Origin: Acaryochloris sp. CCMEE 5410
GTDB taxonomy: Bacteria > Cyanobacteriota > Cyanobacteriia > Thermosynechococcales > Thermosynechococcaceae
Direction of reading: 5' to 3'
Length of the DNA stretch: 64,000 nucleotides
Assembly (NCBI RefSeq): GCF_000238775.2
Contig: NZ_AFEJ02000002.1
Location: 992,001-1,056,000, forward strand
Position numbers and translations under genes: made by a program. Shown piece by piece: positions 44,503 to 53,997 of this stretch (its first letter is position 1; every line of letters begins with the position of its first letter). The notes under the pieces were generated by a model. That model saw only the letters and a list, made by a program, of their open reading frames with translations. It did no database searches and was not told where the DNA came from.

Positions 44503-45687
44503 ATGGTCTCAAATAGTGTGTCCCAACAATCTCGATTGAACTGGCCCCGCGTAACCTGGGTTGCGATCGCAGCTGCCCTGGCCTTGGGTGGGGTCTCTGT
44601 ATGGACCCTGCGGCAGTATTCCAATCCCCCAAAACAGTCCAACACTCCGCCTACCCCCTTAGAGATCAAGACCGTTTCGGCCTTGGGACGCCTGGAACCC
44701 CAAGGAGAGCTGGTCCAGCTTTCGGCCCCTAGCAGTGCGGAAGGGAATCGAATTTCCCAACTATTGGTAAAGGAAGGGGAAGCCGTTTCTTCGGGACAAA
44801 TCATTGCCATTCTCGATAGTCGTGATCGCCTCCAAGCAGATTTGCAGACGGCTCAAGAGCAGGTCCGGGTAGCAGAAGCAGAACTCGCTCGAATTAAAGC
44901 GGGGGCCAAGCAGGGGGAACTGGCGGCCCAGCGCGCGGAGATTGCCCGATTAGATGCCCAACGACAGGGGGAAATGACGGCTCAATCCGCAACCATTGCC
45001 CGCCGCCATGCCGAAGTAGACAATGCCCTAGCCGAATTCAACCGCTATCAATCCCTCTATCAGCAAGGAGCAATCTCGGCTTCAGAACGGGATCAAAAAC
45101 AGTTGGTGCTGCAAACGGCCCAACGCAATCTACAGGAAGCTCAAGCCGTAGCCAACCGTTTACAGGCCGTTCAATCTCCTGAACTAGTTGCGGCTCGGGC
45201 TCGCCTCAATCAAATTGCTGAAGTGCGTCCAGTGGATGTGAATGTCGCCCAAGCCAATATCAACCAAGCTCGCGCTAGCGTTAAGCAGGCCCAGGCCAGA
45301 CTGGATCAAGCCTATATTAAAGCGCCTCAATCGGGAGTGGTATTGGATATCCATACCCATCCGGGTGAAGTCGTGGGGACAGACGGCATACTAGAGCTGG
45401 GCCAAACGCAGCAAATGTATGCGGTGGCAGAGGTCTATCAAAGCGATGTCCGTAAGATCAAAACTGGGCAGGCCGTCAAAGTGAACAGCGAGGCCTTGCC
45501 CCAATCCTTATCGGGCACCGTCGATCGAGTTAGCACCAAGGTCCGGCGGCAAACCATTATTAACACCGACCCCAGCGAAAATATCGATGGCCGAGTGGTG
45601 GAGGTTTACATCAAGTTGGACAACACCTCTAGCCAACAGGCTGCCCAATTTACCAATTTGCAAGTGAATGTGACGGTGCAGTTATGA
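44503..45687 (+). CDS. DevB-like membrane fusion protein (copy 1)
   Basis: A 394-residue HlyD-family periplasmic adaptor. One N-terminal membrane helix (VAIAAALALGGVSVWTL) is followed by the biotinyl-lipoyl half motif (ALGRLEPQGELVQLSAP, ILDSRDRL). A long coiled coil lies at about 105-260 (LQTAQEQVRVAEAELARIKAG), and the beta-barrel part contains YIKAPQSGVVLDIHTHPGEVV. Adaptors of this type link DevCA to a TolC-like outer-membrane channel for glycolipid or other export. The start is ATG 44503 after GTG 44500, with a GGAGG site. Its stop overlaps the next start by four bases (ATGA). Confidence 0.92.
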   Translation: MVSNSVSQQSRLNWPRVTWVAIAAALALGGVSVWTLRQYSNPPKQSNTPPTPLEIKTVSALGRLEPQGELVQLSAPSSAEGNRISQLLVKEGEAVSSGQIIAILDSRDRLQADLQTAQEQVRVAEAELARIKAGAKQGELAAQRAEIARLDAQRQGEMTAQSATIARRHAEVDNALAEFNRYQSLYQQGAISASERDQKQLVLQTAQRNLQEAQAVANRLQAVQSPELVAARARLNQIAEVRPVDVNVAQANINQARASVKQAQARLDQAYIKAPQSGVVLDIHTHPGEVVGTDGILELGQTQQMYAVAEVYQSDVRKIKTGQAVKVNSEALPQSLSGTVDRVSTKVRRQTIINTDPSENIDGRVVEVYIKLDNTSSQQAAQFTNLQVNVTVQL

Positions 45688-46850
45688 AGGCTCCGCTCTC
45701 CAAACGTACCCCGTTGGGGTGGCTCCAGCTCAGCCATGAAAAAGGCAGATTGTTGGTCGCTTTAGCCGGTATTGCCTTTGCGGATGTGCTGATGTTTATG
45801 CAGATGGGTTTTCAGGCCTCTTTGTTTGTCAGTAATACCCAACTGCACCGCACCTTAAATGCGGATATTGTTCTTCTGAGTCCCCAAGCCCGAAATCTGC
45901 AAGCCCTGTCCACCTTTTCTCGACGACGGTTGTATCAGGCACAGGATGTTCCGGGGGTGAAATTCGCGGAACCCTTCTATATCAATACGTTGAACTGGAA
46001 AAATCCCCAGACCAAGCGAGAAACCTTAGTCCAGGTGATTGGGTTTAATCCTGATCGATCTGCCATGAATCTACCAGGACTGACGGAGAAACTTCCCTTG
46101 GTGAAACAGCCGGATACGTTTATCTTCGACCGAGGCTCTAGAGGAGATTATGCCGAGTCTTTTGCCCTCATTGATCAAGGCAAACCTGTGCAGACCGAAG
46201 CGCAACGCCGCACTATTACCATTGCCGGATTATTTGAGATGGGGGCTTCCTTCGGCGCAGATGGGACTTTAATTACCAGTGACCAGAATTTTCTGTTGCA
46301 ATTTCCTCGACGACAGGCGGGCAGCATCAATTTGGGGCTAATCCGACTGGAGCCGAATGCGAACCCAGAACAAGTGGTGGCAACCCTAAAGGATCATCTC
46401 CCGGAAGATGTCCAGGTCTTAACCCTGGAGGAGTTTATTGCCTTTGAAACTGCCTACTGGCAGGTGCGTAGCCCCGTGGGTTTTATTTTCGGCTTAGGCA
46501 CCGCGATGGCCTTTGTCGTCGGGGTGGTGATTGTTTACCAGGTGTTGTCCACGGATGTGAATGCCCATATTCGCGAGTATGCGACCTTCAAAGCCATGGG
46601 CTATCAGAATCGCTATTTCTTAGGGGTGGTGTTCGAAGAAGCCATTATCCTAGCGGTCCTTGGATTTATCCCCGGTGCCATTCTGCCTATGGGACTGTAT
46701 GGTTTGGCCCGATCTGCAACAGCCTTACCCCTATTTATGACCACAGGCCGAGCGATCACGGTATTCGTACTGACGGTGGTGATGTGTACCCTTTCCGGTG
46801 CAATAGCCACTCGGAAACTCCAGTCCGCTGACCCTGCCGATATGTTCTAA
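45684..46850 (+). CDS. DevC-like ABC exporter permease (copy 1)
   Basis: A 388-residue MacB/FtsX-type permease. One N-terminal helix (LLVALAGIAFADVLMFMQMG), a periplasmic domain of about 220 residues, and three C-terminal helices starting at GFIFGLGTAMAFVVGVVIVY are visible. DevC-specific features include HEKGRLLVALAGIAFADVL and the coupling region VNAHIREYATFKAMGYQNRYF. It works with the DevB adaptor and the DevA ATPase as a three-part exporter. Confidence 0.93.
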   Translation: MKAPLSKRTPLGWLQLSHEKGRLLVALAGIAFADVLMFMQMGFQASLFVSNTQLHRTLNADIVLLSPQARNLQALSTFSRRRLYQAQDVPGVKFAEPFYINTLNWKNPQTKRETLVQVIGFNPDRSAMNLPGLTEKLPLVKQPDTFIFDRGSRGDYAESFALIDQGKPVQTEAQRRTITIAGLFEMGASFGADGTLITSDQNFLLQFPRRQAGSINLGLIRLEPNANPEQVVATLKDHLPEDVQVLTLEEFIAFETAYWQVRSPVGFIFGLGTAMAFVVGVVIVYQVLSTDVNAHIREYATFKAMGYQNRYFLGVVFEEAIILAVLGFIPGAILPMGLYGLARSATALPLFMTTGRAITVFVLTVVMCTLSGAIATRKLQSADPADMF

Positions 46851-46869
46851 CCTCAAGCCCCCCTCAACC

Positions 46870-47583
46870 ATGAAAGACCCCGTTATCTCTATCCGCCATC
46901 TCGACCACTACTTCGGTCATGGTCGCCTGCGCAAACAGGTGTTATTCGATATTCACCTAGATATTACAGCGGGAGAAATTGTCTTGATGACCGGCCCCTC
47001 TGGATCGGGAAAAACAACCTTACTAACCCTAGTCGGGGGATTACGGGCCGCCCAAAATGGCAGCCTCAAAATTTTGGGTCAAGAATTAACAGGTGCAAAA
47101 GAGAAGGAACTGGTGCAAGCTCGTCGCCATAATGGCTATATTTTCCAGGCCCATAATTTACACCGCAGTTTAACGACCCTGCAAAACGTAAAGATGGGGC
47201 TAGAAGTGACGGGCACCCGGTCCCCCCAAGAGATGGTGGAGCAAGCAACGACCATTCTCAATCAGGTGGGGCTAGGCGATCATATCCATTACTATCCGGA
47301 TGATCTGTCTGGGGGACAAAAGCAACGGGTTGCGATCGCAAGAGCGTTAGTCAGTCACCCCGCCATTGTCCTTGCCGATGAACCCACGGCTGCACTGGAT
47401 AGTAAGTCCGGTCGAGATGTGGTGAATCTGATGCAAACCCTGGCCAAAGAACAGGGCTGTACTATTTTGCTGGTCACCCACGATAACCGTATTCTTGATG
47501 TGGCTGACCGGATTGTCCATATGGAAGATGGTCGATTAGAAACCAACACCCTAACGGCTGAAGCTCCTCCGAAAGCGGCTTAA
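46870..47583 (+). CDS. DevA-like ABC exporter ATPase (copy 1)
   Basis: A 237-residue ATPase of the LolD/MacB/DevA group. The Walker A is GPSGSGKTT near 40, the Q-loop is in GYIFQAHNLHRSLT, the signature is LSGGQKQR, the Walker B is AIVLADEPTAALDSKSGRD and the H-loop is LLVTHDNRILDVADR. The start is ATG 46870, 19 bases after devC. It completes the first operon; 143 bases without a gene follow before the convergent dioxygenase gene. Confidence 0.94.
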   Translation: MKDPVISIRHLDHYFGHGRLRKQVLFDIHLDITAGEIVLMTGPSGSGKTTLLTLVGGLRAAQNGSLKILGQELTGAKEKELVQARRHNGYIFQAHNLHRSLTTLQNVKMGLEVTGTRSPQEMVEQATTILNQVGLGDHIHYYPDDLSGGQKQRVAIARALVSHPAIVLADEPTAALDSKSGRDVVNLMQTLAKEQGCTILLVTHDNRILDVADRIVHMEDGRLETNTLTAEAPPKAA

Positions 47584-49338: not shown

Positions 49339-50259
49339 TCAGCACTTCAGCGGTTGTGGTGGCTCACTCACAACTTTGACTCGCTCCTGAGAGGTTGGGT
49401 GGATAAATTGTAAAGAGAAGGCATGAAGCCAATAGCCACAATCCCCAGGTACGGGTTGTGATCGTTCTTCAGAACTTATTGACTGAGGTTGTCCTCCCGC
49501 AACATATAACGGATCGCCAAGTAAGGGATAGCCAATGGTTGCTAAATGAATCCGAATTTGGTGGGGACGTCCAGTGGTAATCGTCACAGCCAGTAAAGTA
49601 GCCTCTGGACGTCGTTGAAGAATGGTACAAGCGCTATGGGCGGGGCGTCCTTTTTGAGTAGCAGCATAGATATATCCCAACTCTGGATAAGGAACTTTAC
49701 CAATGGCCTGAGTAATTTCAAACTGCTTTTCTAGGGGGTGGGTGGTTTGTTCAGGCCCAATTAACGCTCGATATACTTTCTGAATTTGCCGAGTCCTCAT
49801 TTGTTGGCTTAAAGCAGCGCGAGCCTGTTGAGATCGCGCCATCAATACCACCCCTGATGTCCCTCGCCCCAAGCGATGGATGGGAAAAGGTGTCCCTTGG
49901 GGAAAACATTGCTGTACCTGGTGGAGCAAGGTATGTTCTAAAAAGGCCCCCCCGGGAAGCACCGGTAACCCTGAGGGTTTATGGATTGCCAACACATCTG
50001 CATCTTCGTATAAAACATCAAAGGTCAAGGGCACCGTTGGTTCCTGCCAGGGGGGACGATGGTAGGCCAAATTCTGTCCCTGTTTTAATACCGTATCTGG
50101 AGTAGCTTGCCGACCGTCTATGGTTACTTGTCCAGTTTCAATTCGGGCTTGCCATTCTGTCCCACTCGAATGCCGGTAGCGTTGAGCATAAAACTCTAAC
50201 AGGGTCAGCCCCGCGCCTGCCTGATTAACTTGATTGTGATAAGTCCAGCCTTGATTCAT
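49339..50259 (-). CDS. RluA-family pseudouridine synthase with variant catalytic motif
   Basis: A 306-residue protein. An S4-like N-terminal RNA-binding segment (residues 15-75, LLEFYAQRYRHS, DGRQATPDTVLKQGQ) is followed by the RluA/RsuA catalytic domain: VLAIHKPSGLPVLPGG, IHRLGRGTSGVVLMAR, GRPHQIRIHLATIGYPLLGDPLY. In most family members the second motif reads HRLDxxTSG with Asp as the catalytic residue; here it is Gly. The rest of the domain is well preserved. I recall the same HRLGRGTSG form in some plant homologues, so it may be a distinct subfamily rather than decay. The start is ATG 50259. Confidence 0.88.
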   Translation of the reverse strand: MNQGWTYHNQVNQAGAGLTLLEFYAQRYRHSSGTEWQARIETGQVTIDGRQATPDTVLKQGQNLAYHRPPWQEPTVPLTFDVLYEDADVLAIHKPSGLPVLPGGAFLEHTLLHQVQQCFPQGTPFPIHRLGRGTSGVVLMARSQQARAALSQQMRTRQIQKVYRALIGPEQTTHPLEKQFEITQAIGKVPYPELGYIYAATQKGRPAHSACTILQRRPEATLLAVTITTGRPHQIRIHLATIGYPLLGDPLYVAGGQPQSISSEERSQPVPGDCGYWLHAFSLQFIHPTSQERVKVVSEPPQPLKC

Positions 50260-50905: not shown

Positions 50906-51493
50906 ATGCCTAAGGTTGTTGATCGAGAACAGTACCGAAAAGAGTTGCTAAATGGCTGCATTGAACTTTTTGCTCAAAAGGGATACGGTTCAATCACTAT
51001 GCGGCAGATTGCTGAAGGGCTCAAGGTTTCAACCGGAACGCTCTACCACTACTTTGACAGCAAGGAAGCGATCTTTATGCAGCTGGTTCAAGAGCTGTGT
51101 GAACAAGATATCTCCCGGTTCTTTGCCCAAGCCCCTGAGGTAGAAACTTTGGAGGCGCGTCTACAGGTAGTAATGGCTTTCGTATTGAAAAGCCTTCAGT
51201 TCTATCAGCAACAGATGCTGCTGTGGGTCGACTTCTTTCAGCAAACTCGAACGGGGGGTGATGAGGAACTGCAGTTCCTCCGCCAGATCTGGGATGGGAC
51301 TCGTGATGCAACAGTGGATTACTTACAGCTCCCGAATACGGAGTTAGCCGACTTCTTGATGATTTTTATTGACGGTCTGATTATTCAATGTGTCTATAAC
51401 CGAGGCATTGAAGATATGGACTGGTTTCATCACCAAAGCCAACTTATGATTCAAATGGTCTGTAGCCATGAACAGTTGTCCCCTCAAAGTTAA
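50906..51493 (+). CDS. TetR-family repressor of the second dev operon
   Basis: A 195-residue regulator from ATG 50906; an in-frame GTG lies at 50894. The DNA-binding helix-turn-helix is SITMRQIAEGLKVSTGTLYH plus the following YFDSKEAIF. The C-terminal domain begins with LCEQDISRFF and includes the YQQQMLLWVDFFQQ segment. It overlaps the downstream devB-like gene by 26 bases, so regulator and exporter are co-transcribed. A perfect palindrome just upstream suggests autoregulation. Confidence 0.88.
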   Translation: MPKVVDREQYRKELLNGCIELFAQKGYGSITMRQIAEGLKVSTGTLYHYFDSKEAIFMQLVQELCEQDISRFFAQAPEVETLEARLQVVMAFVLKSLQFYQQQMLLWVDFFQQTRTGGDEELQFLRQIWDGTRDATVDYLQLPNTELADFLMIFIDGLIIQCVYNRGIEDMDWFHHQSQLMIQMVCSHEQLSPQS

Positions 51494-52766
51494 ACCCAAA
51501 CCCTGGTTAATCGGTACGTTAATTGCTGCCATCGCAGCCAGTGGCGGCATTGTCCTAGTTGGTCTGGCTCAAAGTGGCTGGCAGACCCCCCACTCTGCAG
51601 AATCCAGTGATGTACAACCCACAACCCTACCAAATATTGCCGCTTTAGGCCGACTCGAACCCACGGGTGAAATTGTCAAAGTTGCAGCTCCGCTGACCCT
51701 AGATGGCGATCGCCTTGCCGAACTCAAGGTCCAACTGGGAGATACAGTGCAGGCGGGTGAACCCATTGCCGTTTTGGATTCCCGCGATCGCCTGCTAGAT
51801 GAGGTGGCCCAAGCTCAGGCCCAGCTCCGCGTTGCTCAGGTCAAGCTGGCTCAGGTAAGGGCAGGGGCTAAACCAGGCGCTATTAATGCCCAACGAGCAA
51901 CCGTCTCCCAAGAGGCTGCTGAGTTAACCGGGCAATTGCGAATTCAGCGGCAAACCATTGCCCGATTGGAAGCCCAATACGAGGGCGATCGCAGTGCCCA
52001 AACTGCGGCTGTTCAACGGCTACAGGCTGAGCTGCGCACAGCCCAAAAAGAACTGGCCCGCTATCAATCCCTCTATCAAGCAGGAGCCGTTTCTGCATCC
52101 TTGTTTGATAGCAAGCAGCTGAGTGTAGATACCACTCGCCAAGCCTTGAAGCAGGCCACTGCAGAACGCTCCCGCACCGACGGCATTGCCCAGCGCCGCC
52201 TCCGGGAAGCCCAGGCAGAGTTGGGTCGGCTGGAAACTACCGGGCAAGCTCAGGTGGCAACGGCCCAATCTCGACTGGCAGAAGTGGCAGAAGTCCGGTC
52301 CGTGGATATTCAAATGGCTCAAGCAGAGGTGGAAGCGGCTCGGGTCGCCCTCACTAAGGCCCAGAAAAATCTGGATCGAGCCACCATTAAAGCCCCGAGT
52401 GATGGACAGATTCTCAAGATCTACACCCGTCCTGGTGAGCAGATGAGCGACGGCATTGTCGCCTTAGGACAAACAGAACAGATGCTGGTGGTCGCTGAAG
52501 TTTACCAAAGTGATATTCACCGGGTTCAGGTGGGACAAGCCGCCACGATTCGAGGCCAAGGCTTTCCTGGCGAACTGCGCGGCAAAGTGATTGAGCTAGG
52601 CCGTCAGATTAGTCGCCAGCAGGTCTTTAGTGGCGACCCTGGCGAAAATCTGGATCGTCGCGTGGTCGAGGTCAAGATTGCCCTTGATCCAAAAGACAGT
52701 CAACAAGTTGCTAACCTGAGCAATTTGCAGGTGCAAACGGTGATCCAAATTTCCGATGACTCTTGA
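51468..52766 (+). CDS. DevB-like membrane fusion protein (copy 2)
   Basis: A 432-residue HlyD-family adaptor. One N-terminal helix (LIGTLIAAIAASGGIVLVG) precedes ALGRLEPTGEIVKVAAP and VLDSRDRLLDEVAQAQAQLR. The coiled coil (about 105-300) is longer than in copy 1 by roughly 35 residues, which would lengthen the periplasmic tunnel. The barrel segment is TIKAPSDGQILKIYTRPGEQ. The start ATG 51468 lies inside the TetR gene and shares the 14-base string GCCATGAACAGTTG with the start of the downstream devC copy. Confidence 0.92.
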   Translation: MNSCPLKVKPKPWLIGTLIAAIAASGGIVLVGLAQSGWQTPHSAESSDVQPTTLPNIAALGRLEPTGEIVKVAAPLTLDGDRLAELKVQLGDTVQAGEPIAVLDSRDRLLDEVAQAQAQLRVAQVKLAQVRAGAKPGAINAQRATVSQEAAELTGQLRIQRQTIARLEAQYEGDRSAQTAAVQRLQAELRTAQKELARYQSLYQAGAVSASLFDSKQLSVDTTRQALKQATAERSRTDGIAQRRLREAQAELGRLETTGQAQVATAQSRLAEVAEVRSVDIQMAQAEVEAARVALTKAQKNLDRATIKAPSDGQILKIYTRPGEQMSDGIVALGQTEQMLVVAEVYQSDIHRVQVGQAATIRGQGFPGELRGKVIELGRQISRQQVFSGDPGENLDRRVVEVKIALDPKDSQQVANLSNLQVQTVIQISDDS

Positions 52767-52775
52767 TTTGGCATT

Positions 52776-52788
52776 TTTTATAACGAAC
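52776..52788 (+). promoter_or_regulatory. Second copy of the operator half-site between devB and devC
   Basis: The 13 bases TTTTATAACGAAC exactly match the left half of the operator at 50847-50859. They sit in the gap between the second devB and devC genes and are followed by GTTTGATTTTGG, a degenerate right half. This could be an internal operator or promoter for devC-DUF4336-devA. Confidence 0.55.
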
Positions 52789-52809
52789 GTTTGATTTTGG
52801 AAAGTGGCC

Positions 52810-53997
52810 ATGAACAGTTGGATAAGGCGAAAACGGCCTAAATTTCTAAAGAGAACCCCTTTAGCCTGGCACCAGGTGACGCGGGAGCGCACACGGTTAC
52901 TGGTTGCGATCGCAGGCATTGCTTTCGCCGATATGCTGATTTTTATCCAGATGGGGTTTGAGGGGGCCTTATTCGATGCGGCCGTCCAGCCCCACCGCAA
53001 TCTGCAGGCAGATTTGGTTTTAACCAACCCCCAAATGCAGACCTTGTTTTCCGTCAAAGCTTTTCCCCGCGCCCGGCTGTATCAGACCCTGGCCCATCCC
53101 CAGGTCAAGTCCGTGAATGGGGTTTATATTGCCACCGGACAGTGGAAGAATCCTGAGACCAAGCGAGAGCGAGCCATTTTGGTCTGGGGCATTGACCCGG
53201 CTGAGCCGTCCTTTAAGTTCCCGGAAGTCACGAACAATCAGGATAAAATTCAGCCCCTGCATCGCGTCTTATTTGATCAGGCTGGACGACCAGAATATGG
53301 ATTTACCACCACTGCGTTTGAGCAAAAGGGGCATTTCGCCGCCGAACTGAATAACAAGCTGATTCAGGTGGACGGGGTGTTCACCAACGGAGCGTCCTTC
53401 GCTGCCGATGGCAATGTAATTGCCAGTGACTCCACCTTTCTGCAGCTGTTTCCGAACCGGAGTCCAGAGCAGATTGAAGTGGGGCTGATTCAGCTGCAGC
53501 CGGGGGCCAACCTGGCACAGGTCAAGGCCGATCTAGAGGCTCTGCTACCCGACGATGTTTTAGTCGGCACCACCGAAGACTTTGCCCAGATTGAGCGGGA
53601 CTACTGGGCCAACGGCACCGGGATTGGCTTTATCTTTGGCCTCGGGGTGGGCGTGGGCTTTATTGTCGGCATCGTGATTGTCTATCAGATTCTATATTCT
53701 GATGTATCTGAGCATTTGCCTGAATATGCCACCTTAAAAGCTATGGGCTACACGGACAACTATCTGTTGGGGATGCTTATTCAAGAAGCCCTCCTTCTGG
53801 CTGTTCTCGGGTATTTACCCAGTGTGGGATTAGCTTTAGGACTGTATCAGCTGGCCTTTGCAGCCACCATGCTTCCCATCTCCATGACTACCCAACGAGC
53901 CGTCACTGTCTTGATTATGACTATTCTGATGTGTTCGATGTCGGGGGCCATTGCCATGCGCAAGCTAAGGGCCGCAGATCCAGCCGATATCTTCTAG
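52810..53997 (+). CDS. DevC-like ABC exporter permease (copy 2)
   Basis: A 395-residue MacB/FtsX-type permease, clearly homologous to copy 1 over its whole length: RERTRLLVAIAGIAFADMLI, a periplasmic domain with NGASFAADGNVIASD, and three C-terminal helices from IGFIFGLGVGVGFIVGIV. The coupling region is SEHLPEYATLKAMGYTDNYL. I chose ATG 52810 over GTG 52804. The DUF4336 gene follows after 18 bases. Confidence 0.93.
   Translation: MNSWIRRKRPKFLKRTPLAWHQVTRERTRLLVAIAGIAFADMLIFIQMGFEGALFDAAVQPHRNLQADLVLTNPQMQTLFSVKAFPRARLYQTLAHPQVKSVNGVYIATGQWKNPETKRERAILVWGIDPAEPSFKFPEVTNNQDKIQPLHRVLFDQAGRPEYGFTTTAFEQKGHFAAELNNKLIQVDGVFTNGASFAADGNVIASDSTFLQLFPNRSPEQIEVGLIQLQPGANLAQVKADLEALLPDDVLVGTTEDFAQIERDYWANGTGIGFIFGLGVGVGFIVGIVIVYQILYSDVSEHLPEYATLKAMGYTDNYLLGMLIQEALLLAVLGYLPSVGLALGLYQLAFAATMLPISMTTQRAVTVLIMTILMCSMSGAIAMRKLRAADPADIF

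Follow-up and report, generated by a model that had tools for sequence, protein, structure and literature searches.

A cyanobacterial clade of RluA-family proteins with glycine in place of the catalytic aspartate

The Gly-type gene and its surroundings

The window, by which we mean the whole stretch of 64,000 nucleotides analysed here, contains an ORF with an ATG start for an RluA-family protein whose motif II reads HRLGRGTSG (Table 1). Active enzymes have HRLDxxTSG at this place, and the position of their Asp is taken by Gly131, encoded by GGG (window 49867–49869). According to the available excerpt of PMC3919597, every synthase sequence known retains the motif II Asp, and its mutation abolishes activity in TruA, TruB, RluA and RsuA. 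The preliminary description of this locus had reported a Gly for the catalytic Asp in an RluA-like ORF with an otherwise well-kept fold. Both parts of that observation hold; it is right and stronger than stated.

Table 1. Features of the Gly-type gene and its product, with positions in the window
Feature	Position	Strand	Basis
RluA-family protein, Gly for catalytic Asp	49339..50259	-	306 aa ORF; TIGR00005 E 1.4e-65; PF00849 E 3e-28
Clade-specific N-terminal signature NxGWxY, residues 2-7	50239..50256	-	N2, G4, Y7 each in 191/191 lettered rows
N-terminal S4-like domain, residues about 17-68, degenerate	50056..50211	-	TIGR00005 match from residue 17; 2ist alignment
Clade-specific linker RPPWxEPxxPL, residues 68-78, with R68, W71, E73	50026..50058	-	Each in 192/192 rows
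Pseudouridine synthase catalytic domain PF00849, residues 88-240	49540..49998	-	Pfam; AlphaFold2 model (2i82, Z 21.5)
Motif II HRLGRGTSG, residues 128-136	49852..49878	-	Sequence, conservation, codons
Tyr163, conserved active-site tyrosine	49771..49773	-	192/192 Gly-clade rows; 51/51 Asp-type rows
Motif III TGRPHQIRIHLA, residues 229-240, with Arg231, Arg236; Pro232 for Thr/Ser	49540..49575	-	Alignment
Asp273, candidate compensating acid	49441..49443	-	D 177, E 12, N 1, Q 1 of 191 lettered rows

Exporter genes flank the Gly-type gene on both sides (window 45684–47583 and 51468–53997); they encode FtsX-type permeases, an ABC ATPase and an HlyD-type fusion protein, and we take them to be DevBCA-like. 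The neighbouring genes further include those for a TetR-type regulator and for a PhyH-type protein. No neighbour is conserved across 80 loci, the largest shared neighbour family occurring at 11 of them, and we take the genes around the window ORF as unrelated to it. A role in defence was considered as well, and PADLOC returned no match.

Family membership and predicted structure

The window protein scores 221.5 bits against TIGR00005 (cut-off 192.7), which places it in the RluA family, and 99.4 bits against PF00849 (cut-off 26.8). It stays far under the equivalog cut-offs for RluD (NF008385, 98.5 of 351 bits), RluC (NF008249, 88 of 378), TruC (NF008321, 78 of 328) and RluA (NF007543, 69.6 of 286). 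By sequence, the closest solved structure is 11wx.

An AlphaFold2 model built with 17 sequences (pLDDT 85.4, pTM 0.71) has RluA (2i82) as its best match in the PDB, with Z 21.5 and an rmsd of 2.8 over 201 aligned residues. The Z scores for RluA, RluD (2ist, 20.8) and RluC (1v9k, 20.6) are tied, and the catalytic-domain fold of the three enzymes is evident from Z scores of 20.5–21.5 to 2i82, 1v9k and 1prz. Residues 2–306 of the model also align with full-length RluD 2ist, including its S4 region, over 272 residues; since the rmsd is 10.4, the two domains are placed differently in the model. The linker block between residues 71 and 80 has low confidence (mean pLDDT 61). Pfam detected no S4 domain in the window protein and, among five family members given, matched S4 in two (E 0.006 and 0.07), both below the cut-off.

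The Gly-type protein resembles E. coli RluA, RluC and RluD in fold and in the framework of motifs II and III, and it shares an S4-like N-terminus with RluC and RluD. Unlike these enzymes, with which it has about 24–31% identity in structural alignments, it lacks the catalytic Asp, has Pro for Thr in motif III and carries N-terminal and linker signatures of its own.

Glycine is fixed throughout a single clade

Gly occupies the Asp position in all 81 loci comprising the window and the best 80 of 563 relatives. A wider set of 292 loci gave 239 ORFs above 175 bits and 194 unique rows, and all 193 rows with a letter at this position have Gly. A sequencing error or a one-off change is therefore ruled out. 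Each Gly codon is in use among the 192 rows checked (GGG 79, GGA 47, GGT 43 and GGC 23), a count that leaves out the two halves of a stop-interrupted copy, L283. A change from GAY to GGY requires a single transition, yet Asp was seen in no member of the clade. Intermediates with another residue were not found either: every ORF above 175 bits with a letter at the site has Gly, and Asp is present in all the lower-scoring relatives compared, being kept in 51 of 51 other RluA-family sequences. The score ranges of family and non-family proteins come together only where copies are broken: L283 and L121 give the lowest-scoring pieces of the family (179 and 184 bits), and the best Asp-type protein reaches 171 bits.

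In a tree of 44 Gly and 51 Asp rows, one branch separates the two types with support of 100/100, on a Gly-clade stem of about 2 changes per column and with a bootstrap that is not fully settled. The proposal in the preliminary description that proteins of this kind may form a subfamily is thus upheld, as is its mention of plant homologues with the same change, which correspond to the XXHRLG type described in the available excerpt of PMC8910892.

Family f19 (30 unique rows; L117–L121 and other loci) has HRLGRFTSG as its motif, where Phe stands in place of the second Gly. This is a lineage-specific change adjoining the lost Asp.

Distribution and selection

Of 388 sampled genomes belonging to the class of the window, 195 carry the Gly-type gene as detected with a 17-sequence profile; among the 334 class genomes with completeness of 90% or more and contamination of 5% or less, 165 do. 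The exact-codon pattern for HRLGRGTSG occurs in 31 of the 386 phylum genomes; it undercounts the family, because 7 of 72 chosen pattern-negative genomes carry a diverged orthologue with HRLGTGTSG, HRLGRGASG or HRLGRFTSG, all of them with Gly. The closest relatives in GTDB contigs are all from Cyanobacteriota, as judged from the best 80 of 563, below which weaker Gly-type members from other phyla may rank. Protein searches of 10 genomes of family f7 and of 18 genomes from other classes of the phylum did not find the Gly type and gave matches at the Asp-type level only, the best in those other classes having 124 bits. Among viral contigs there were 32 pattern matches and no relative of the Gly-type protein, and of 150 plasmid records with RluA relatives none had one at 60% identity or above. 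From the sampled distribution, therefore, the Gly-type gene is old within its class but frequently lost.

Three genomes lack the gene although it occurs elsewhere in their genus: G097 (genus g31), G147 and G183 (genus g47). These absences are signs of recent loss, and two of the three genomes are small (2.8 and 3.0 Mb).

Of 17 pairs compared, the 13 whose dS is below 1.3 give rough pairwise NG86 estimates of dN/dS of about 0.10–0.34, and the remaining four are near or past saturation. The Gly-type gene is under purifying selection, and functional rather than decaying. That it is a relic without function seems to us very improbable. The patchy presence in about half of the class genomes would fit decay, as would a few broken copies: the reading frame of L121 is divided between two frames, a stop interrupts L283, and L290 (in G610) is flagged with one stop. 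On the other side stand the selection estimates, the well-supported clade and 25 residues that are strictly invariant over the 194 unique rows.

Pocket residues and candidate acids

In solved complexes, as described in the excerpted text of PMC3919597, the Arg two residues before the catalytic Asp fills the position of the flipped base, with a conserved Tyr lying against it. The Gly clade retains the base-flipping Arg (R129, 192 of 193 lettered rows), the active-site Tyr (Y163, 192 of 192) and the motif III arginines (R231 and R236, 191 of 191), and K161 is present in 192 of 192. Of the residues expected in an active synthase it is the motif II Asp that is missing. In all, K94, K161, Y163, R231, H233, Q234, R236 and L278 are strictly invariant in the clade and R129 nearly so; Asp-type rows have the same pocket residues, except for Arg or Lys at position 161.

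Other positions set the clade apart. N2, G4, Y7, W36, R68, W71, E73 and Y276 are clade-specific invariants, and P126, S209 and P232 are clade-specific and nearly invariant. Across linker residues 68–78 the Asp-type rows vary. P232 is found in 190 of 191 lettered Gly-clade rows, and 50 of 51 Asp-type rows have Thr or Ser there. Several pocket positions have thus changed together.

The preliminary description had pointed to a compensating acid as something to look for, and the alignment does supply candidates. Only positions 9 (D/E in 175 of 191 rows), 73, 86, 249 and 273 are acidic in at least 90% of the Gly clade. D86 and D249 are common to the Asp type and thus not new, which, besides the variable position 9, leaves E73 and D273 as candidate relocated catalytic acids, both conserved and specific to the clade. 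E73 is present in 192 of 192 rows and position 273 is acidic in 189 of 191, whereas Asp-type rows have Glu at 73 in only 5 of 51 cases and mostly Leu at 273. The Gly-type protein might accordingly still be a pseudouridine synthase in which another carboxylate replaces the lost Asp, the likeliest being Glu73 in the linker or Asp273, which lies in the loop preceding the LHA strand. We regard this as a possible, if rather unlikely, explanation. The otherwise intact pocket agrees with it; however, D273 is replaced by Asn or Gln in two members, E73 falls in the linker block modelled with low confidence, and the statement excerpted from PMC3919597 that all known synthase sequences conserve the motif II Asp weighs against it.

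Another chemistry, also considered in the preliminary description, would be a different reaction on RNA proceeding through the invariant Tyr163 or a clade-specific residue; this is improbable. The strict fixation of Gly, with no drift among residues, and the set of new invariants would be in keeping with it. On the other hand, the Gly clade has no conserved Cys, its conserved lysines are K94, common to ordinary synthases, and K161, a position where those enzymes have Lys or Arg, and no other chemistry for the RluA fold came up in this analysis.

Plant homologues and non-catalytic precedents

The available excerpt of PMC8910892 defines an XXHRLG type of RluA in plants, represented by AtRLUA7 (AT3G52260) and ZmRLUA7, which occurs from alga to seed plants and is called probably inactive. 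A non-catalytic role or a partner enzyme is suggested there for these variants, and AtRLUA7 is predicted to be located in chloroplast, cytoplasm and nucleus. The window protein has the same Asp-to-Gly change within the same HRLG motif. The excerpt also states that the type is absent from organisms other than plants, which is contradicted by the existence of the cyanobacterial HRLG clade. Descent of the plant XXHRLG proteins from this clade by way of the plastid is putative and offered here as a lead. A literature search, with most subscription journals outside its coverage, found no publication on a cyanobacterial HRLG-type protein.

Two other proteins provide precedents for work without catalysis. 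The trypanosome factor mt-LAF3, which takes part in assembly of the mitoribosomal large subunit, resembles the Gly-type protein in its RluA-type fold (6yxx_EC, Z 16.8, rmsd 18.0 over 269 residues) and by a profile match (E 3.4e-12), but is mitochondrial and remote in sequence. Its role is reported not to need catalysis in the part available of a review (PMC11469412). The second, SVR1 of the Arabidopsis chloroplast, is a plastid pseudouridine synthase homologue with a reported non-catalytic function, its Asp mutant still complementing according to the PMC8910892 excerpt; unlike the Gly-type protein, it belongs to the RsuA family and naturally keeps the Asp. Loss of activity does not by itself turn a synthase into a chaperone, however: the inactive RluC(D144A) of E. 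coli gave no help to 50S assembly and made growth worse, as excerpted text of PMC11194073 reports. Taken together, the published precedents cut both ways.

A probable non-catalytic RNA-binding protein

With moderate confidence, we favour the view that the Gly-type protein is a conserved pseudoenzyme of the RluA family that binds RNA and has no catalytic role, perhaps a factor in rRNA folding or assembly. This agrees with the purely RNA-binding role that the preliminary description put forward as a possibility. The pseudoenzyme view draws on the strict Gly, the intact partner residues, the single clade, the low dN/dS values and the presence of a second RluA-family match in the same genomes (see below), together with the inactivity of Asp mutants (PMC3919597, in excerpt) and the precedents of mt-LAF3 and SVR1. 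The protein has lost the Asp that starts the reaction and kept an S4-like domain and the cleft of the catalytic domain, along with the base-flipping arginine and the tyrosine and arginines that hold the base. It would then bind structured RNA, most likely rRNA or a precursor, with a uridine or modified uridine flipped into the pocket, and keep that RNA folded; in this way it would serve assembly or folding as a dispensable factor, forming no pseudouridine. Against such a pseudoenzyme, the intact Y163 and R236 would also suit an active enzyme, and E73 is a strictly invariant acid. Against a ribosome-related role, gene neighbourhoods give no conserved pointer to ribosomes, since even the most widely shared neighbour family is present at only 11 of the 80 loci.

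Descriptions of pseudouridine synthases treat the motif II Asp as universal and essential. The present clade lacks it in every member seen, yet keeps the rest of the pocket under selection. In a tentative and rather unlikely wider scenario, a cyanobacterial family that plants probably received along with the chloroplast would have made the pocket into a base-flipping reader or RNA-holder, or put it to other chemistry, with Gly selected for the room it leaves a ligand. The function of the Gly type becomes testable because members are present in many cyanobacteria, in which gene removal is practicable: the type had been noted in plants, and cyanobacterial carriers allow a knockout to be combined with a pseudouridine map. 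Moreover, annotations as 'RluA family pseudouridine synthase' include proteins that may make no pseudouridine.

Coexistence with other RluA-family proteins

The genome of the window also encodes an Asp-type protein with the motif HRLDKDTTG (TIGR00005, 302.7 bits). Such coexistence with another RluA-family protein is usual: in searches of 58 genomes, 25 of the 26 Gly-positive ones had a second match to the family. This is what one might expect if the Gly-type protein were a reader, with Gly giving room for a modified or larger flipped base, or a partner that directs or regulates the Asp-type RluA of the cell. The coordinated pocket changes D131G, T232P and I126P, with the flipping and holding residues kept, point in the same direction, and the partner idea has been raised for the plant variants (PMC8910892, in excerpt). 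Nevertheless, Asp-type paralogues occur also where the Gly type is missing, and a long RluA-type paralogue does not follow it. We consider such a role doubtful. The most likely order places the non-catalytic pseudoenzyme first, a synthase with a relocated acid next and a reader or partner third.

The long paralogue, of about 500–630 residues, has a C-terminal RluA-type domain with HRLDQETSG or a similar motif and a long N-terminal part. We considered whether the Gly-type protein excludes it and found that it does not: the two occur together in 14 of 33 Gly-positive genomes, and the paralogue is present in 23 of 47 Gly-negative ones, with three further Gly-positive genomes matching its C-terminal part only. 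The long paralogue therefore neither replaces nor tracks the Gly-type protein. Overall, it was found in 37 of 80 genomes, beside the three with partial matches.
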